A stretch of DNA of 19,624 nt from Hydrogenophaga sp. Its GTDB lineage: Bacteria > Pseudomonadota > Gammaproteobacteria > Burkholderiales > Burkholderiaceae_C. Location of the stretch: NCBI GenBank assembly GCA_011390855.1, contig JAABRN010000267.1:1-19624 (forward strand). The letters run 5' to 3'. Of the stretch, positions 321 to 19,624 are shown in pieces. The translations under genes were made by a program, and so were the position numbers. Position 1 is the stretch's first letter, and the number at the start of each line of letters is the position of its first letter. A model generated the notes under the pieces. It was not told the DNA's origin. It saw only the letters and a program-made list of their open reading frames with translations, and searched no databases.

Positions 321-1094
321 CTACGCCGCTTCGCGGCCCGGCGCAAACAGGTCGACGCGGTCTGTGATCACGCCATCGATGCCCAGATTCAGCAATCGCT
401 CCACCGCCCATTCGTCGTTGACGGTGTAGGCCAGGGTGCGCATCCCGGCCTGGGTGGCCTGAGAAATGGTGGCCTTGTCCCACAGTGCGTGGTTGCAAAC
501 GATGGCCACACAGCCCAAATCCGTCGCCACGTTCAGCCAGCCGTCCCACAAGGTGTCGAGCAACAGCCCCCGCGGCAGATCGGGCGCCGCCTCTTTGGCT
601 CCCATCAGGGCCTCAGGCTGAAAGGAAGTCAAAAGCGGTGGCGCAGCCGAGGAAGTGGTCCACAGCGCCTTTGCCGCTTTGGCAACTGCCACGCCCGTGG
701 CCCTCTCCAGGCCGGGCGTGGGCTTGATCTCGATGTTCAGCATGAACGCATTGGCCAGGCAAAACCCCGCCACCGCACCCAGTGTGGGGAGTGGTTCGCC
801 TGCAAAGGCGCGGGAGTGCCAGGCGCCCGCATCGAGCTGGCTGAGGTGGTGCCATTTGTGGTGCCCACCAGTGCCTTCTCCATTGGTGGTTCGCTGCAGG
901 GTGGCGTCGTGCATCAGGAATACCACGCCGTCGGCGCTCAGCTTGGCGTCACATTCGAACATGCGGTAGCCGTGGAGCGCACCGACGCGGAAGGCAGCGA
1001 GGGTGTTTTCTGGTGCAAGTTTGCCTGCACCCCGATGGGCGATCCAGCGTGGATAGGGCCAGGGAGCGGCTGCCTGCGGGGTGACTGACCTCAT
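321..1094 (-). CDS. ugpQ: Glycerophosphodiester phosphodiesterase UgpQ
   Basis: This 257-residue cytoplasmic enzyme hydrolyses glycerophosphodiesters to glycerol-3-phosphate and an alcohol, using substrates brought in by the Ugp transporter. The N-terminus carries the GDPD catalytic signature, [12 protein letters not shown] (His20, Arg21, Glu29, Asn30), followed by [10 protein letters not shown] (Glu47, Asp49) and MHD (His62). These are the catalytic histidines and metal ligands of the GDPD TIM barrel. The similarity to Escherichia coli UgpQ runs along the whole length (for example PRGLLLD and AYTVN), and the length is close to the 247 residues of that protein. The ATG overlaps the ugpC stop codon as ATGA (1091-1094), so it is translationally coupled as the last gene of the ugpBAECQ operon. 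No signal peptide is seen, which agrees with the cytoplasmic role. Confidence 0.95.
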
Positions 1095-2095
1095 TGCCGT
1101 TTGCCTGTTTGGACATCAAACCAGTGCACCCGGTCTTCCCGGGGCTGCGCGAAAATGGTGCTGCCCACTTCCGGCGCACCCTGGTCTTCGTGTGTGCGGA
1201 TGATGAGCTGCTCATCACCCAGGCGCGCGTGCACCAGGCGTTCGGCGCCCAGCAGTTCCACGGTCTCTACCTGCAAGGCCCACCCGCCGGTTCCAATGTC
1301 GAGGTGCTCAGGCCTGATGCCCAGCAGGCTGCCCGGGCGGCCACCTGGTGCATGCTTCAAGAGGTTCATGGGGGGCGAGCCAATGAAGCTGGCCACAAAG
1401 GTGGTGGCGGGGCGGGAATACACCTCTTCCGGCGTGCCGAACTGCTCCATGTTGCCGGCATTCATCACGATCATGCGCTGGGCCAGCGTCATCGCTTCCA
1501 CCTGGTCGTGGGTAACGAACAGTGAGGTGATGCCAAGCTCGCGGTGCAGTTTCTGGATCTCCAGGCGTGTCTGGGCTCGCAGCTTGGCATCGAGATTGGA
1601 CAGCGGTTCGTCGAACAGAAAGACCTGGGGTTGGCGCACGATCGCGCGGCCCATGGCCACGCGCTGGCGCTGGCCGCCCGAGAGTTCGCGCGGTTTTCGG
1701 TTCAGCAGGTGGCCCAGTTCCAGAATACCGGCAGCCTTGTCCACTCGCGCCTTGATCTCGTCAATCGGTACCTTTTTGATCTTCAGGCCGTAGGCCATGT
1801 TGTCGAACACGCTCATGTGGGGGTACAGCGCGTAGTTCTGGAACACCATGGCGATGTCGCGTTCCGCCGGTTCCAGCCCGTTGACCACCCGCGGGCCGAT
1901 GGCGATTTCACCGCCGCTGATTTCTTCCAGACCGGCCACCATGCGCAGCAGCGTGGACTTGCCGCACCCCGAGGGGCCCACGATGACGATGAATTCTCGA
2001 TCGGCAATTTCGGCGTTCACGCCGTGGATCACCTGCAGTTCGGTTTTGCCTGAGCCATAGCGCTTGGTGACGTTGCGCAGGGAGATGGATGCCAT
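1091..2095 (-). CDS. ugpC: sn-glycerol-3-phosphate ABC transporter ATP-binding protein UgpC
   Basis: This 334-residue nucleotide-binding subunit powers G3P/glycerophosphodiester import through UgpA and UgpE. The visible motifs are Walker [10 protein letters not shown] (residues 40-48), the Q-loop in [16 protein letters not shown] (about 84-99), the signature [14 protein letters not shown] (138-151), Walker [14 protein letters not shown] (158-170) and the H-loop histidine 196 in VTHDQ. A C-terminal TOBE/MOP regulatory domain (about 235-334) follows, including GIRPEHLDI, as in the MalK/UgpC group. The start at 2095 ([14 protein letters not shown]) matches the family. The frame stays open to 2257, but that extension would run into ugpE and has no family-like sequence. 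The gene lies 53 bases after ugpE and overlaps ugpQ by four bases. Confidence 0.96.
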
Positions 2096-2148
2096 GGGAA
2101 TTCTGAATTTTTTGGAGAGATTGGACTGCGATCGAAGGTTTCCTGGAG

Positions 2149-3003
2149 CTATTTCTCCGTATCCACCAGCCCCTTGACGAACCAGCGCTGCATGACCATG
2201 ACCACCAAGGCCGGGGGCAGCATCGCGAGGATGGCCGTGGCCATGACCACGTTCCATTCGGTATAGGACTCACCAGCGATCAGGCGCTTGATGCCCATGA
2301 CCACCGGGTACATGGATTCGTCCGTGGTCACCAGCAGTGGCCAGAGATACTGATTCCAGCCGTAGATGAACTGGATCACGAAGAGTGCTGCGATCGAGGT
2401 TTTGGACAACGGAATCAGCACGTCCTTGAAGAAGCGCATCGGGCCCGCGCCGTCCATGCGGGCGGCTTCCACCAGTTCGTCCGGCACAGTGAGGAAGAAC
2501 TGCCGGAACAGGAAGGTGGCGGTGGCCGATGCAATCAGTGGAACGGTCAGTCCCGCATAGGTGTTGAGCATGCCCAGATTGGCCACCACCTCGTAGGTGG
2601 GGCCGATACGCACTTCGACTGGCAGCATCAGGGTGACAAAGATCATCCAGAACACCAGCGTGCGAAACGGGAATCGGAAGTAGACGATGGCAAAGGCCGA
2701 CAGCAGCGAGATCGCGATTTTCCCAATGGTGATGATCAGGGCGCTGACCAGACTCACCCACATCATGGGTGCCGCAGCGGGGATCTGGCTCCCTGCGCTT
2801 GTCATGCCGCCGAACAGGGCTGTTTTGTAGGTCTGCAGCATGTTGTCACCGGGAATCAGCGACATGGGAAATGCTTGCGCGATCTGTTCAGAAGTCTGGG
2901 TGGAGCCGACCAGCGTGATGTACAGCGGAAACCCCACCACCAACACGCCAAGCAGCAACACCACATGTGAAAGGACCGTAAGGCCAGGGCGTTTTTCGAT
3001 CAT
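2149..3003 (-). CDS. ugpE: sn-glycerol-3-phosphate ABC transporter permease UgpE
   Basis: This 284-residue inner-membrane permease forms the translocation channel with UgpA. It opens with [13 protein letters not shown], which closely resembles the start of E. coli UgpE, and ends with KGLVDTEK, also family-like; the length is close to the 281 residues of that protein. Six hydrophobic segments are visible (first about 10-32, last about 254-272). The cytoplasmic EAA loop that contacts UgpC is [20 protein letters not shown] (179-198). There is no purine-rich ribosome binding site before the ATG. Instead, the stop codon of a 39-codon reading frame overlaps the ATG (ATGA at 3000-3003), suggesting translation by coupling. 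Confidence 0.96.
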
Positions 3004-3119
3004 GGTGCAGTCCGGGTGCAGAGGGGAAGTTCAACCAGAACGCCGCCGATCCGGCTCTGCTGGTCGGCCAGCGTTGCTCCCTGGGGGGTGACGACGAAGT
3101 CGGCGCGGGGGGGGCTCAT
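3000..3119 (-). CDS. Candidate 39-residue small protein exactly filling the ugpA-ugpE gap
   Basis: Read on the minus strand, an ATG directly abuts the ugpA stop codon (TGAATG at 3117-3122). It opens a 39-codon frame beginning [17 protein letters not shown] and ending LCTRTAP, with a TGA that overlaps the ugpE ATG. Both ends therefore look coupled: ribosomes finishing ugpA could restart here and deliver ribosomes to ugpE, which lacks its own clear Shine-Dalgarno site. The peptide has no membrane segment and no domain I recognise. It may be a real small protein, a purely translational coupling device, or a chance frame in GC-rich DNA. I know of no counterpart in the E. coli operon. Confidence 0.4.
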
Positions 3120-4001
3120 TCAGTAGTTCACTTTCTTTTCGACAAAGCGGAACTGGATGACGGTGAGCGTGATGACCACCACCATCAACACCACCGACTG
3201 CGCGGCGGAGCCGCCCATGTCCAGGGCCTTGAAGCCGTCGTAGTAGACCTTGTAGACAAGAATGGCCGTGTCTTTGCCCGGGCCGCCCTGAGTGGTGGCG
3301 TCGACGATGCCGAAGGTGTCGAAGAACGCGTAGACGATGTTGATCACCAGCAGGAAAAAAGTGGTGGGTGAGAGCAGCGGAAACACGATGGACCAGAAAC
3401 GCCTCCAGGGCCCGGCACCATCGATGGCCGCAGCCTCGATCAGCGACTTGGGGATCGACTGCAGCCCCGCCAGGAAGAACAGGAAGTTGTAGGAGATCTG
3501 CTTCCACACCGCCGCCGCCACGATGAGCGTCATGGCGTGGTCGGAATCCAGCAGGTGGTTCCATTCAATGCCGACCGCGCGAAGGTAGTAAGCCACCACG
3601 CCCATGGGTGAGGCAAACATGAAGAGCCACAGCACACCCGCGACCACCGGGGCCACCGCGTAGGGCCAGATCAGGAGGGTTTTGTAGACAGATGAGCCTT
3701 TCAGCACGCGGTCGGCGTACACCGCCAGCAGCAGGGCGATCGACAGGCCGATCACGGCCACCAGCAGCGAGAACACCGCTGTGGTCTTGAACGACTCAAG
3801 GTAGGTGCTGTCGTCCCAGAGGCGCTGGAAGTTTTCCATGCCAACGAACTCGGTGGACATGCCAAACGGGTCCTGGGTCAGGAAACTTTGGTAGAGCGCT
3901 TGCGCAGCGGGCCAGAAAAAGAACACCAGCACCACCGCCATCTGCGGTGCCACCAGGGCCCAGGGGAGCCATGTGGATTTGAAACGTACGCGTTTTTCCA
4001 T
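3120..4001 (-). CDS. ugpA: sn-glycerol-3-phosphate ABC transporter permease UgpA
   Basis: This 293-residue inner-membrane permease is the partner of UgpE. It aligns end to end with E. coli UgpA (295 residues), for example [10 protein letters not shown] near residue 11, [14 protein letters not shown] near 34, SVWKQ-like [14 protein letters not shown] (163-176), and SAAQSVVLM (265-273). The EAA loop [20 protein letters not shown] spans residues 189-208. Six hydrophobic segments can be seen, the first at about 13-33. The ATG at 4001 gives a family-like basic N-terminus ([13 protein letters not shown]), with only a weak upstream purine stretch. The gene follows ugpB after 125 bases that contain a terminator-like hairpin, so its expression may be lower than that of ugpB. 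Confidence 0.96.
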
Positions 4002-4049
4002 GAGGTGCCCACTGGGTGAGTGAGAAGGAATCCGACAGGGTGAGTCAAC

Positions 4050-4091
4050 GAAAAACCCGCCCCGTCCGGGGTGGCCGGCGCTGGGGCGGGT
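4050..4091 (-). terminator. Terminator-like hairpin between ugpB and ugpA (likely attenuator)
   Basis: On the minus strand, a perfect 9-base stem (ACCCGCCCC at 4091-4083 with GGGGCGGGT at 4063-4055) encloses a 19-base GC-rich loop and is followed at once by TTTTT (4055-4051). This is the layout of a Rho-independent terminator in the direction of ugpB to ugpA. A second hairpin (GGGCGC/GCGCCC, 4093-4110) precedes it, just after the ugpB stop. Because ugpAECQ lie downstream and belong to the same system, partial termination is more likely than a complete stop. Confidence 0.6.
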
Positions 4092-4126
4092 AGGGCGCCG
4101 TCAAGCGCCCGGAAGGGTGGAGATTA

Positions 4127-5443
4127 TCAGGACTTGTTGGCGCGCTCGAAGCGTTCGAGTTGCTCATTGCCGCGCTTGACGGCAGAGTCGAGCGCTTCTT
4201 TGGCCGACTTCTTGCCAGCCCAGACCTGCTCCAGCTCTTCGTCGTTGATGGTGCGGATCTGCACGAAATTGCCCAGGCGGATGCCGCGCGACTTGTCAGT
4301 GGTCTTGCGGATCATCTGGGTCACGGATACATCGGTACCGGGGTTCTGCTTGTAGAAACCGCTGCTGTCTGTGAGCTTGAACGATTCCACCGTGACAGGG
4401 AGGTAGCCGGTGCGCTGGTGGCTCTTCGCGGCCTCTTCAGGCTTGGACAGGTGCGCAAAGAACTGGGCGACACCTTTGTACTCTTCCGCTTTTTTGCCCG
4501 ACATCACCCACAGGCTTGCGCCGCCGATGACGGTGTTCTGCGGTGCGCCTTGCACGTCGGGGTAGAAGGGAAGGGTGCTGATGCCGCTTTCAAACTTGGC
4601 GTTGCGCTTGATGTTGCCGTACAGCGCAGAAGATCCGGTGGTCATGGCGCATTCGCCCGAGACGAAGGTGGCGTCGGCTGCGTTGCCGCGGCCCTTGTAG
4701 ACGAACAGGCCGGTCTTGGCCATGTTGGCCAGGTTTTCGATGTGCCGCACGTGCAACGGGCTGTTGAAGTTCAGGCGCGCGTCCATGCCGCGCATGCCAT
4801 TGCCCTTGGTGGCGAATTCGGTGTTGTGCCAGGCAGAGAAGCTCTCCAGCTGGGTCCAGCTCACCCAGCTGGTGGTGAACGGGCACTTGTGACCAGCTGC
4901 CTTGAGCTTGCCAGCCGCCAGGGCCACTTCCGGCCAGGTCTTGGGAGGGGCCTCAGGGTCCATGCCGGCCGCTTTGAAGGCGTCCTTGTTGTAGTGGAAC
5001 ACCGGCGTGGAGCTGTTGAACGGGAAGCTCAGCATCTGGCCGTTGGGGGCGGTGTAGTAGCCTGCCACCGCAGGTACGTAAGCCGCCGGGTCGAATGTCA
5101 CGCCGGCGTCGCTCATGATCTTGCCCACTGGCACGATGGCGCCCTTGCTGGACATCATGGTGGCGGTGCCCACTTCAAACACCTGCAGGATGTGAGGTGC
5201 GTTGCCTGATCGGAACGCGGCGATTGCAGCCGTCATGGATTCGTCGTAGCTGCCCTTGAAGGTGGGAACAATCTTGTACTGGGTCTGGCTGCCGTTGAAA
5301 TCCTTGGCCAGGTCGTTGACCCATTCGCCCAGGGCGCCACCCATTGAGTGCCACCACTGGATTTCGGTCTGAGCATGTGCAGGGGTGCTGAGGAAGGCGG
5401 CCAGCGCCAATGCGCTCGCAGCAGGAAGAAGGTTCTTGTGCAT
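4127..5443 (-). CDS. ugpB: sn-glycerol-3-phosphate/glycerophosphocholine-binding periplasmic protein UgpB
   Basis: This is a 438-residue periplasmic solute-binding protein, the receptor of the Ugp importer. A Sec signal peptide (MHKNLLPAASALALAAFLST) has a probable cleavage after AHA at residue 24. The mature part matches E. coli UgpB throughout: WWHSMGGALGEWV, YKIVPTFKGSYDESM, FRSGNAPHILQVFEVGTATMM, FPFNSSTPVFHYNKDAF, APQNTVIGGASLWVM and RLGNFVQIRTINDEELE. The length equals that of the E. coli protein. The ATG at 5443 follows a good Shine-Dalgarno sequence (AGGAGC on the minus strand). The frame is open further upstream to 5578, but that stretch is the promoter region and does not resemble the family. 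It is the first gene of the operon and is separated from ugpA by an attenuator-like hairpin. Confidence 0.97.
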   Translation of the reverse strand: MHKNLLPAASALALAAFLSTPAHAQTEIQWWHSMGGALGEWVNDLAKDFNGSQTQYKIVPTFKGSYDESMTAAIAAFRSGNAPHILQVFEVGTATMMSSKGAIVPVGKIMSDAGVTFDPAAYVPAVAGYYTAPNGQMLSFPFNSSTPVFHYNKDAFKAAGMDPEAPPKTWPEVALAAGKLKAAGHKCPFTTSWVSWTQLESFSAWHNTEFATKGNGMRGMDARLNFNSPLHVRHIENLANMAKTGLFVYKGRGNAADATFVSGECAMTTGSSALYGNIKRNAKFESGISTLPFYPDVQGAPQNTVIGGASLWVMSGKKAEEYKGVAQFFAHLSKPEEAAKSHQRTGYLPVTVESFKLTDSSGFYKQNPGTDVSVTQMIRKTTDKSRGIRLGNFVQIRTINDEELEQVWAGKKSAKEALDSAVKRGNEQLERFERANKS

Positions 5444-5475
5444 GGTTGCTCCTGAAAAATCGTTTGGAAGGCCGA

Positions 5476-5509
5476 AGCCTAGCGGTCGAATGTGACAATT
5501 TGATTGCAT
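5476..5509 (-). promoter_or_regulatory. Candidate PhoB box and -10 of the ugp operon
   Basis: On the minus strand, positions 5509-5491 read ATGCAATCAAATTGTCACA. By eye this agrees with the Pho box consensus (two CTGTCAT-like repeats 11 bases apart) at 14 of 19 positions, with the downstream TTGTCAC repeat being the strong one. Nine bases further downstream is a possible -10, TAGGCT (5481-5476), which is the spacing expected when PhoB replaces the -35. A further TTGTCAT lies upstream at 5530-5524. The ugp operon of E. coli is a PhoB-regulated member of the phosphate-starvation regulon. The assignment here is by inspection only. Confidence 0.4.
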
Positions 5510-5617
5510 ACAGTTTTCCAGGCCATGACAACAGGGTTTCCACAGGGGTGGTGGGTGTATGTTGCGCTGCGGTACCATCTTGGGCTACCCACAGTCATGC
5601 TGGCGACTGCCACACAG

Positions 5618-15587: not shown

Positions 15588-15635
15588 ATTTTTCCTGCGG
15601 GCGTGCCCTGCTTATCTGTTGAAAGAAAACCTGAA

Positions 15636-17423
15636 ATGGCCATGCGCTCCCACTATTGCGGTCTGGTGACCGAAGCCCAGATGGGTGAAACCGTTCAGTT
15701 GTGTGGCTGGGTGAACCGCCGCCGCGACCACGGTGGCGTCATCTTCATCGATCTGCGTGACCGGGAAGGCTACGTGCAGGTGGTGTGCGACCCCGATCGT
15801 GCCGAGATGTTCAAGACCGCGGAAAACGTGCGCAACGAGTATTGCGTGCAAATCACGGGGCTGGTGCGTGCCCGTCCGGAAGGCACCACCAACGGCAAAA
15901 TTGAAGTGCTTTGCCACGAGCTCAAAGTGCTCAACGCCTCGATCACGCCACCGTTCCAGCTGGACGACGACAACCTGAGCGAAACCACACGCCTGACGCA
16001 CCGGGTGCTCGACCTGCGCCGCCCTTACATGCAGAACAACCTGATGCTGCGCTATCGCGTGGCCATGGAGGTGCGCAAGTTCCTGGATGCCAATGGGTTC
16101 ATCGATATCGAAACTCCGATGCTCACCAAGAGCACACCTGAAGGCGCGCGCGACTACCTCGTGCCGAGCCGCGTGCACGACGGACATTTCTTCGCGTTGC
16201 CCCAAAGCCCTCAGTTGTTCAAACAGCTGTTGATGGTGTCGGGTTTCGACCGCTACTACCAGATCACCAAGTGCTTCCGAGACGAAGACCTGCGCGCCGA
16301 CCGCCAACCCGAGTTCACGCAGATCGATATCGAGACCTCGTTCCTGACCGAGGAAGACATCCGTGACATGTTCCAGGGCATGATCAAGACCGTGTTCCAG
16401 AACACCCTGGGGGTGGATCTGGGAGACTTCCCGGTCATGGCCTACAGCGAGGCCATGCACCGTTTCGGCTCAGACAAGCCCGACCTTCGCGTCAAGCTGG
16501 AGTTCACCGAGCTGACCGACGTGATGGCCGATGTGGACTTCAAGGTCTTCAGCGCCCCTGCCACCATGAAAAACGGGCGCGTGGTCGCCCTTTGCGTGCG
16601 TGGCGGGGCGGAGATCAGCCGTAGCGAGATCGACGCTTACACCGAATTCGTCAAGATCTACGGTGCCAAGGGTCTGGCCTGGATCAAGGTCAACGAAGTG
16701 GCCAAGGGTCGCGATGGTCTGCAAAGCCCGATCGTGAAAAACCTGCACGATGCCGCCGTGACCGAGATTTTGAAGCGCACGGGTGCTCAAGACGGAGACA
16801 TCATCTTCTTTGGCGCAGACAAGTGCAAGGTGGTGAACGACGCCATTGGTGCACTGCGCATCAAGATTGGTCACAGCGAACTGGGCAAGAAGAACGGTCT
16901 GTTTGAGGACCGTTGGGCACCCCTGTGGGTGGTGGACTTCCCGATGTTCGAGCACGACGAAGAAGCCGATCGCTGGACCGCGGTGCACCACCCGTTCACC
17001 GCACCGAAAGATGGTCACGAGGACTGGATGGTGACGGCACCCGAAAAATGCATCGCCAAGGGTTACGACATGGTGCTCAATGGTTGGGAGATTGGCGGCG
17101 GCTCGGTGCGTATCCACACGGCGGCGGTGCAGCAGAAGGTGTTCGATGCCTTGAAGATCACGCCTGAAGAAGCGCAAATCAAGTTCGGCTTCCTGCTCGA
17201 CGCGCTGCAATACGGTGCCCCACCGCACGGAGGCCTTGCCTTCGGCCTTGACCGGGTTGTGACCTTGATGACCGGTGCCGAATCCATTCGCGACGTGATT
17301 GCCTTCCCCAAAACCCAACGAGCCCAGTGCCTGCTGACCCAGGCGCCGAGCCTGGTTGACGAGAAGCAGTTGCGAGAACTGCATATCCGCCTGCGCAACG
17401 CCGATCTGGTCAAGCCGGCCTGA
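15636..17423 (+). CDS. aspS: Aspartyl-tRNA synthetase (likely aspartate--tRNA(Asp/Asn) ligase)
   Basis: This 595-residue class IIb aminoacyl-tRNA synthetase is of bacterial type, with the GAD insertion. The N-terminal OB anticodon-binding domain spans about 1-110 ([21 protein letters not shown]). Class II motif 1 is around [20 protein letters not shown] (154-173). Motif 2 is [18 protein letters not shown] (214-231). Motif 3 is [16 protein letters not shown] near the C-terminus. The length fits the family. In the anticodon domain, His32 (RRRDHGG) and Gly83 (RPEGTTN) match the pattern of the non-discriminating Pseudomonas aeruginosa enzyme rather than E. coli (RRRDLGS). It may therefore also charge tRNA-Asn for conversion by GatCAB. 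The start at ATG 15636 ([10 protein letters not shown]) is family-like; ATG 15642 is an alternative. Confidence 0.97.
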
Positions 17424-18633: not shown

Positions 18634-19152
18634 ATGGTCAGCAAAGACTCGTCATCGTGTTCTCCCAAGTCGTCTACTGGTTTCAAGATTCCGCAGTCCG
18701 TGCTGGTGGTGATCCACACGCCGCAACTGGATGTGCTGTTGATTGAACGGGCAGATGCACCTGGTTTCTGGCAATCGGTCACCGGCTCGAAGGATTCGGA
18801 AGGCGAGTTGTTTGAGCAGACCGCGGTGCGTGAGGTGGCTGAAGAAACGGGTCTTGATGCGCATGCCCCGGGACATGTGCTCACCGATTGGGGTTTGGAG
18901 AACGTCTACGACATATACCCCCAGTGGCTGCAACGTTATGCGCCCGGTACCAGCCAAAACGTCGAACGCGTTTTTGGCTTGTGCATACCGGCATGCAGGC
19001 CGGTGATCCTCAGTCCGCGTGAGCATCGTGCACAAATGTGGATGCCTTGGCACGGCGCTGCCGACCTCTGTTTCTCTCCATCCAACGCGGAAGCCATCTT
19101 GCTGCTTTCGCACTTTGGATCGGGCTTTAGGCTGCCCAGAAAACTCGGTTAA
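18634..19152 (+). CDS. nudB: Dihydroneopterin triphosphate diphosphatase NudB
   Basis: This 172-residue Nudix hydrolase removes pyrophosphate from dihydroneopterin triphosphate in tetrahydrofolate synthesis. FKIPQSVLVVIHTP (17-30), LLIERADAPGFWQSVTGSKD (35-54) and the Nudix box from Gly51 to Leu74 (REVAEETGL, catalytic glutamates 67, 70 and 71) identify it, with WQSVTG being specific to the NudB group. The Nudix spacing before the first glutamate has one extra residue relative to E. coli NudB, as I recall for betaproteobacterial members. Later NVYDIYPQW and the HRAQMWMPWHGA block also fit. The ATG at 18634 keeps a short family-like leader; GTG 18637 is a possible alternative. It often accompanies aspS in betaproteobacteria; here the yqj-like genes lie between. 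Confidence 0.93.
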   Translation: MVSKDSSSCSPKSSTGFKIPQSVLVVIHTPQLDVLLIERADAPGFWQSVTGSKDSEGELFEQTAVREVAEETGLDAHAPGHVLTDWGLENVYDIYPQWLQRYAPGTSQNVERVFGLCIPACRPVILSPREHRAQMWMPWHGAADLCFSPSNAEAILLLSHFGSGFRLPRKLG

Positions 19153-19196
19153 TGAGCACTTTGGAACCTCTTCGTTCCGCAATTCTTGCTGCCAAA

Positions 19197-19219
19197 GTAC
19201 TGATTCGGAGTACGTTTTT
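19197..19219 (+). terminator. Weak terminator candidate after nudB
   Basis: GTACT-GATTCGG-AGTAC is followed directly by GTTTTT, which is a hairpin plus T-run layout 44 bases after the nudB stop. The stem has only five pairs and is AT-rich, so it would be a weak terminator. A second short inverted repeat (GGAAC/GTTCC, 19163-19178) precedes it. Confidence 0.35.
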
Positions 19220-19391
19220 GTAATAAACCTTCCGCTTGTAGTGCGAAGTTGTTCACGCTTGTCTGTTTGCAGGCGCCTTGGGAGCTCGGCTGTACGTTTC
19301 AATTGAGAGAAAATGTTTACCTATTGGAAAAAGGGTAGACCAAAGACCCCATCCGATGGTCTCTCTCATTCAAAAGCGGGCGTTGGCGAGC

Positions 19392-19624
19392 ATGAACAAG
19401 ACTTACAAATCGATCTGGAACGAAACCCTCGGAACGTACGTAGCCGCAGCAGAAACATCCGCTTCCGCAGGCCGCAAGACAGCCTCGACCCGACGCTCAC
19501 GCAGGGCACCCGCGCGCGCACATGCCGGGCAACTGGTGCTTGAGCAGCGCATTGTTTTCGATGCAGCCATGCCAGCCACGATGGCAGAGGTTCAAGGCGA
19601 CAGTGACACTGTGTCGGATTCAAT
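19392..19624 (+). CDS. N-terminal part of a large surface adhesin-type protein (ESPR + LEPR-like motif), truncated by window edge
   Basis: An ATG at 19392 opens a frame with no stop before the window end (77 codons seen). It starts MNKTYKSIWNETLGTYVAAAE, a clear match to the extended signal peptide region (ESPR) found at the N-terminus of autotransporters, trimeric adhesins and TpsA exoproteins (pattern MNKxYKxIWNxxxGxxVAVxE). Next comes a basic Arg/Ala/Ser stretch (RKTASTRRSRRAPARAHAG, about 28-46), and then LVLEQRIVFDAAMPAT (48-63), resembling the LEPR-XLL motif near the start of giant repeat-containing secreted proteins. No hydrophobic signal core is visible between them. Very probably the beginning of a long repeat-rich surface protein; the secretion route cannot be decided from this part. 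The ribosome binding site (GGCGAG) is weak. Confidence 0.75.
   Translation, partial: MNKTYKSIWNETLGTYVAAAETSASAGRKTASTRRSRRAPARAHAGQLVLEQRIVFDAAMPATMAEVQGDSDTVSDS

Follow-up and report, generated by a model that had tools for sequence, protein, structure and literature searches.

The ESPR is described, in the excerpted text of PMC8151025, as the front part of the Sec-dependent signal peptides of type V secretion, with no signal function when it stands alone. Two surveys of adhesins, PMC10952558 and PMC8286594, include it as a signal domain in the excerpts concerned, the first of them together with Planc_extracel, and earlier surveys may in this way already have counted the ESPR in fibrillar adhesins. 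For the export of giant DUF4347/LEPR proteins, for a hybrid of ESPR and LEPR, and for the gene cassette discussed below, we found no description among the open-licence PMC papers listed by our searches, judged by title and the start of the abstract. The component families are known; their arrangement and the two candidate export signals appear to be new.

The window analysed here, a stretch of 19,624 nucleotides, is the entire contig C138 of a Hydrogenophaga genome (2.39 Mb in 553 contigs, 55% complete). The giant gene at its right end is cut because the contig ends with the window. Judging from sequence comparison with its relatives, this gene probably encodes a giant surface adhesin of the genus, exported by an M50-HlyD/OEP apparatus; in this protein the ESPR would be a lineage-specific addition.

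The Start of a Giant Gene

The features of the window that bear on this gene are as follows.

15603..17423, + strand: aspS-like gene on the conserved left flank (88-98% identical between the loci compared, conserved order)
18634..19152, + strand: nudB-like (NUDIX) gene, the conserved left neighbour (PF00293, scanned from 18646; conserved order, ATG and stop)
19153..19391, + strand: non-coding stretch between the nudB-like gene and the giant gene
19392..19624, + strand: giant protein gene, first 77 codons and 2 bases, truncated at the contig end
19392..19520, + strand: ESPR, aa 1-43 (PF13018, E 3.5e-14; 1.1e-13 in the genome search)
19470..19529, + strand: Arg/Ser-rich linker, aa 27-46, where a hydrophobic core is expected (sequence, uncharged runs)
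19539..19568, + strand: LEPR-like motif LEQRIVFDAA, aa 50-59 (pattern and position; ortholog conservation)

The frame from 19392 to 19624 translates as MNKTYKSIWNETLGTYVAAAETSASAGRKTASTRRSRRAPARAHAGQLVLEQRIVFDAAMPATMAEVQGDSDTVSDS and is stop-free to the window end. The ESPR that the earlier note had read at its start was recovered by profile search (PF13018, aa 1-43, 53.4 bits against a cut-off of 25), and at an E-value of 3.5e-14 the match is not due to chance. Past the Arg/Ser-rich linker the protein continues with LEQRIVFDAAMPAT, in which L50, E51, R53, I54, V55, F56, D57, A58 and A59 are invariant across nine orthologs. The curated LEPR-XLL model NF012209 (cut-off 17 bits) leaves the window protein unmatched up to E 10, since the motif reads LEQR rather than LEPR; the LEPR-like motif of the earlier note thus stands by its pattern and by its position near the N-terminus of DUF4347 giants, but not by profile score. 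The NF012209 cut-off is exceeded by two of the nine proteins tested. PADLOC matched nothing for P0001.

The ESPR begins at the same ATG in the nine loci compared, and 16 of its first 19 residues are identical among nine orthologs (the exceptions being residues 4, 11 and 12), which suggests selection. Upstream of this ATG the frame is open for just 2, 3, 7 and 11 codons in the four complete orthologs, leaving no space there for an upstream signal peptide. The window itself has 50 open codons upstream of the ATG, including a short hydrophobic stretch, VVHACLFAGALGARLYV, that starts upstream of the first possible start codon, a TTG at 19278.

The left flank of the giant gene, including the nudB-like gene and the aspS-like gene at 15603..17423, has an identical order in the window and in the relatives compared. 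Further to the left, on the minus strand at 321-5578, lies what we take to be a sugar/glycerophosphate-type ABC importer group with a phosphodiesterase-like gene. The same genome also encodes an ESPR protein of the ordinary kind, hydrophobic core included (L275, G000 contig C44, 2730-4230), which offers a within-genome contrast; its start, as we read it, resembles that of filamentous haemagglutinin.

Full-Length Orthologs

The 77 residues were searched in 147 related genomes, the window's own included, of which 28 gave a match at E ≤0.001. Fifteen of the matching genomes, besides the window's own, belong to the same genus, that of Hydrogenophaga taeniospiralis, with 62-88% identity and E < 1e-25. 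Four orthologs are complete, with 2884 aa in G039, 4390 in G045, 4885 in G005 and 6198 in G007. They carry long repeat arrays, which agrees with the earlier note in two respects: the window frame starts an unusual giant repeat protein, and the full-length orthologs have the cadherin/VCBS-type repeats that it had proposed to look for. In the G005 and G045 proteins Pfam finds the ESPR, one DUF4347 and 36 and 28 Big_9 stretches, respectively, plus cadherin-like ones, and NCBIfam finds tandem-95 and VCBS repeats in the G039 and G045 proteins, with CshA repeats in the latter.

No barrel, TPS or beta-helix domain was found by Pfam in the full-length G005 and G045 proteins (E 0.01), and the candidate classes of autotransporter, trimeric adhesin and TPS protein are ruled out by the full-length orthologs. 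Lacking a barrel, a TPS domain and a Sec core, these proteins also sustain the suggestion that the ESPR stands here outside an ordinary type V/Sec signal. The large-adhesin model NF045619 scores 385.7 and 513.7 bits in the G039 and G045 proteins (cut-off 180), a score that comes from the repeats only: it is built from 23-24 repeat stretches, and the best profile part is 97-222 of 458, not the C-terminus. RTX nonapeptides are absent, with 0 occurrences of GGxGxDxx across the four complete orthologs. Between the repeats and the tail lies a Pro/Ala-rich linker, and the tail closes with a conserved G[FL]..Q[LV]. For the final 250 aa the prediction, at low confidence (mean pLDDT 48), is mostly disorder and a short helix at the very end; as a search for a structured C-terminal domain, a model of this quality was unusable.

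The ESPR-LEPR Hybrid among Other ESPR Proteins

An ESPR is present in 42 of the 67 genomes of the genus. We compared 75 unique ESPR N-termini, five of their loci coming from outside the genus, after dropping one shorter than 60 aa. Between aa 22 and 100, the longest uncharged run was 8-12 residues in 20/20 N-termini of the LEPR type and 16-67 residues in 55/55 of the others. In the window protein, the longest run free of D, E, K and R past aa 22 is 8 residues, so the junction of an ESPR with a LEPR-like motif without an H-region, as first described, is confirmed. Plain hydropathy windows give overlapping ranges for the two groups (0.82-1.81 for the LEPR type vs 0.99-2.63 for other ESPR proteins); the difference lies in the charge pattern. 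Within the hybrid N-terminus, hydrophobicity is highest in the LEPR segment.

A profile of ESPR plus LEPR was carried beyond the genus, where it matched 17 of 349 genomes of the order and 2 of 312 of the class, the window's own being included in each. The order gave 18 new loci, 17 of them readable (L293 was unreadable), and five further places without a locus. Only one true hybrid was found outside the genus, a 2359-aa DUF4347 protein in G762 that ends in what we take to be a DUF4214-like region, and no cassette genes were found in 34 kb around it. LEPR is missing from the remaining 16 loci of the order and from the class match G235, all of which represent ESPR proteins of the ordinary kind. 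Among the genomes searched, the hybrid class proposed by the earlier note is not a wide one: it was found in one genus and one other genome. Eleven long proteins with both ESPR and DUF4347 are in the protein database according to Pfam lists.

The genus has several ESPR-LEPR paralogs that sit away from the cassette, as well as paralogs without an ESPR (L114, L116), and the cassette-linked giants read outside the genus mostly do without one. Taken together, the paralogs away from the cassette and the G762 hybrid without a cassette indicate that the link between ESPR and cassette is not strict.

The Putative Export Cassette of the Genus

To the right of the window's end, as extended through the orthologs, the giant gene continues and is followed by genes for an OEP, two HlyD-type adaptors and an M50 protein. 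In full, the order in the four complete loci is OEP, HlyD, GAF-like-HlyD and M50-HlyD. In G039, these genes overlap or sit at most 44 bases apart. They encode an OEP of 625 aa (PF02321, E 4.5e-24) with a lipobox VMAGC, a 275-aa HlyD, a 441-aa HlyD whose front half is GAF-like, and a 727-aa fusion of one M50 half with one HlyD half, the OEP, HlyD and M50 assignments being those of Pfam. Nine more loci of the genus are cut by contig ends, and in eight of these the giant's C-terminus comes directly before the OEP; the ninth stretch, L127, is not long enough. The G007 OEP (composite 30837-32724) is split over two overlapping frames, by a frameshift or a sequencing error.

The earlier note had named the HlyB/HlyD/TolC genes of a type I system among the things to look for. 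No frame with both Walker A and LSGGQ was found between the giant's start and the M50 end in four loci, so that the neighbours do not include the ABC ATPase of such a system; with RTX repeats also absent from the giant, RTX/HlyB-type secretion was rejected. In five long regions the sole ABC ATPase found is of the sugar-importer type and lies left of the giant on the opposite strand (G039, G045, G049).

In the window's own genome, an M50-HlyD with 70% identity over aa 213-727 stands at the end of contig C67, the remainder of which is collinear with the G039 region right of the cassette. Contigs C138 and C67 therefore most likely flank the missing portion of the giant gene. No DUF4347 was found in this genome, which is 55% complete.

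The HExxH and the Asp motif are invariant in the 11 M50 proteins compared, and the M50 half matches the daptide model NF041824 at E 8.3e-50 (170 bits). A GAF domain in the third cassette gene was not accepted, at 17.7 bits by Pfam against a cut-off of 22.4. The 50 fold matches listed for a model of this protein were all adaptors, with low TM-scores (0.24-0.30 on the query), and "GAF-like" accordingly remains a lead.

A second giant of the genus, L116 (5637-12361, G039), has no ESPR; it carries LEPRIVFDGA and the same C-terminal type, and is followed by its own OEP, with no adaptor or M50 gene within the stretch read. A few kb downstream of the cassette-free paralog giants L111, L113 and L116 there are frames for ABC ATPases.

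Distribution of the Cassette and of DUF4347

The cassette set is widespread and not confined to the Hydrogenophaga genus. With thresholds of E ≤1e-20 for M50-HlyD and E ≤1e-5 for DUF4347, the 147 relatives contain M50-HlyD in 39 genomes, DUF4347 in 35 and both in 30. A DUF4347 lies within 40 kb on the same contig at 17 of 51 M50 places, each time on the same strand; at the other 34, some of them on split contigs, none was found within that distance on the contig. Across 398 genomes of the phylum, M50-HlyD occurs in 90 and DUF4347 in 93, 74 having both and 16 and 19 only one of the two; by genera, the counts are 46, 49 and 36 (both) of 212. The odds ratio for the genomes is 70 and the p-value 4e-46, and since the compared genomes and protein tails are mutually related, this p-value, as well as the Fisher tests and shuffles given below, overstates the significance.

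Eighty named M50 loci were kept from at least 587 relatives. An OEP was found in 73 of them, HlyD in 76, GAF-like-HlyD in 77 and a giant-like frame in 61. Among plasmid records, 52 matched, including 18 from Escherichia and 8 from Citrobacter. One E. coli IncFIA/IncFIB plasmid (L350, L353; NZ_CP081687.1 44829-64580) carries in a row an Ig-like protein, a TolC family protein, an RND adaptor and two HlyD proteins; its giant starts with MTTIKNRRLRPRAHRFALESRQLFDGA, contains DUF4347 and has SLAAQVDALARNR close to its end. M50-HlyD was also seen on Citrobacter, Azospirillum and Cupriavidus records. A distant class of M50-HlyD (26-30% identity; L100, L101, L102) lies near DUF4347 giants in another gene order, and these giants end differently, some of them with a membrane helix.

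Candidate Export Signals and DUF4347

Two segments of the giants are likely export signals. The one at the N-terminus is the LEPR segment. We fetched 40 N-termini of DUF4347 proteins and found LEPR upstream of DUF4347 in 21 of the 24 from genomes with M50-HlyD vs 1 of the 16 from genomes without it (Fisher p 3e-7; 6e-7 when L316, cut by a contig end, is left out; both overstated by relatedness); the 16 stem from 11 genomes, and several of them start 1-20 residues before DUF4347. The single case without M50-HlyD comes from a genome that is 57% complete. As for the three misses, L326 has LAPRILFSAD in its place, and L327 and L331 have nothing.

The other candidate is a motif at the C-terminus. 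The pattern [LFIVM]..Q[LVMIF], set after the tails had been inspected, occurs in the last 45 aa of 53 of the 55 giants that end just before an OEP, mostly as F..Q[LVI] (named loci). Shuffled tails gave a mean of 4.2 and a maximum of 11, and windows from the protein bodies a mean of 5.4 and a maximum of 15. The two misses are L152, with FSEMVQ, and L186, with FTEQV farther upstream. The stricter form G[FL]..Q[LV] is found in seven tails of the genus and also in four ESPR-LEPR paralogs located apart from the cassette (L111, L112, L113, L115), and the sharing of one tail by such paralogs suggests one apparatus serving several substrates.

Each of the four complete giants has exactly one cysteine, which lies inside DUF4347 beside a conserved Tyr-Gly (e.g. 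L043 5549-6004). In 36 longer DUF4347 frames from many genera, some of them partial, there is one cysteine in 24 and there are 2-6 in 12, and a cysteine falls within DUF4347 in all 36. Of 88 non-redundant DUF4347 domains, 86 conserve the His of a His-Gly pair, and 86 conserve a Cys. We take this order, His and then Cys, to be that of clan CD peptidases, and DUF4347 may be a clan CD-like self-cutting protease beside the leader, freeing or trimming the adhesin. A structure named as a DUF4347 domain-containing protein (PDB 9qpe_G) shares the His-Gly and the Cys. Its match to the DUF4347 profile is weak, at E 5.5e-5 with designed TIM barrels next at 1.4e-4, and a single-sequence query placed it at E 0.36, behind unrelated designs, so that the tie leans only on the depositors' name.

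A Proposed Export Route and Its Alternatives

In the route that we propose for the giant adhesin of this genus, the LEPR segment and the C-terminal motif would be the export signals, recognised by the adaptors. The adaptors and the OEP would build a TolC-type duct with the OEP as its exit, and the intramembrane M50 protease would process, gate or hold the giant's N-terminus. Once outside, the repeat arrays would form a surface fibre. The ESPR would have no role as a type V signal peptide. Its simplest use may be to delay export or to retain the N-terminus at the inner membrane, a relic being less likely.

A wider proposal is that these parts make up an undescribed and widespread Gram-negative secretion system, a possibility we raise tentatively and would not yet call probable. 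Its substrates would be LEPR/DUF4347 giants with an N-terminal LEPR and a C-terminal F..Q[LVI] signal. A TolC-type duct of the OEP, two HlyD adaptors and M50-HlyD would export them with no ABC motor. The genus would have added a type V ESPR, and DUF4347 would perhaps be the clan CD-like self-cutting protease. Against the route proposed above for the genus stand the 16 of 90 M50-HlyD genomes without DUF4347 and the 34 of 51 M50 places without one within 40 kb on their contig.

The giant might instead be a type I substrate that crosses the inner membrane through an ABC exporter encoded elsewhere, with the linked adaptors and OEP as the outer parts. An OEP and adaptors of the HlyD type belong to the usual equipment of type I systems, and ABC exporters are present in 8/8 cassette-bearing genomes of the genus that were searched. 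In G005, G007, G035 and G040 the LssB match is nearly full-length, and these four also have an ABC-sized frame with C39, which in G035 is partial. We nevertheless consider this unlikely. None of the eight genomes reaches the LssB cut-off, and G039, G045, G061 and G063 have neither a near-full-length LssB among the matches listed nor a C39-bearing ABC-sized frame; the giant has no RTX, and the cassette has no ABC gene. An ABC ATPase was found in only 7 of the 80 named loci, always at least 2.7 kb beyond the M50 gene, by a query that was a sugar-importer ATPase rather than an established type I ATPase. Other kinds of ABC exporter are abundant in the cassette-bearing genomes, and no ATP-driven component was identified for the cassette. 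It is quite improbable, in turn, that the ESPR and the LEPR segment together work as a Sec signal of an unusual sort, the cassette being used after Sec crossing. The membership of the ESPR in Sec-dependent type V signals (excerpted text of PMC8151025) and the hydrophobicity of the LEPR segment, the highest in the N-terminus, speak for such a signal; against it stands the uncharged run, which never exceeds 12 residues in any of the 20 LEPR-type N-termini.

Compatible with the cassette reading is the view of the ESPR as a relic without function or as a captured N-terminus, with all targeting elsewhere in the protein. The cassette-linked giants read from other genera, most of which manage without an ESPR, and the ESPR-free paralogs L114 and L116 would fit it well, and yet the near-identity of its first 19 residues in nine orthologs suggests selection, which makes a relic rather improbable. 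A contig end in a fragmented genome is also a place where an assembly or binning artefact could join an ESPR to an unrelated frame. The same joint at the same locus in G005, G007, G039 and G045, and in proteins of other data sets, rules out such a fusion, to which we assign next to no probability.

Many Gram-negative bacteria have giant DUF4347/LEPR proteins, which are also found on E. coli and Citrobacter plasmids. For these giants, the cassette, the LEPR segment and the F..Q[LVI] motif offer an export route that can be tested. The hybrid of this genus, for its part, is a natural separation of the ESPR from a Sec signal, which makes the role of the ESPR directly testable.

Comparison with Known Systems

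Among described families, LEPR-XLL (NF012209; cf. PF07595, Planc_extracel) shares with the giants an N-terminal LExRxxF/L(D/S)(G/A) motif, free of a hydrophobic core and placed ahead of DUF4347 in large repeat proteins. The window protein differs in reading LEQR, in having no NF012209 score and in the ESPR that precedes the motif. With the type V proteins of PF13018 the window protein has in common an ESPR above the cut-off, but the giant has no hydrophobic core, and its full-length orthologs have no barrel or TPS domain. The giant Ig/cadherin/VCBS repeat arrays, with an OEP and HlyD nearby, are shared with the type I adhesins of the LapA/BapA/LapF kind (NF045619), from which the giant is set apart by the missing RTX, by a cassette without an ABC gene and by an NF045619 score that comes from repeats.

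The cassette also has parts with known counterparts. Its M50 retains the HExxH of the peptide-maturation proteases (NF041824, daptide; NF058609, YydH/LiaK), but it stays under their cut-offs (300 and 225 bits), is fused to HlyD and is paired with giant proteins. The HlyD halves match the tripartite efflux adaptors MacA, EmrA and MexA by sequence, and GAF-like-HlyD matches them by fold, with low TM-scores; what distinguishes the cassette from these adaptors is an added cytoplasmic-type front half and the fusion to M50.
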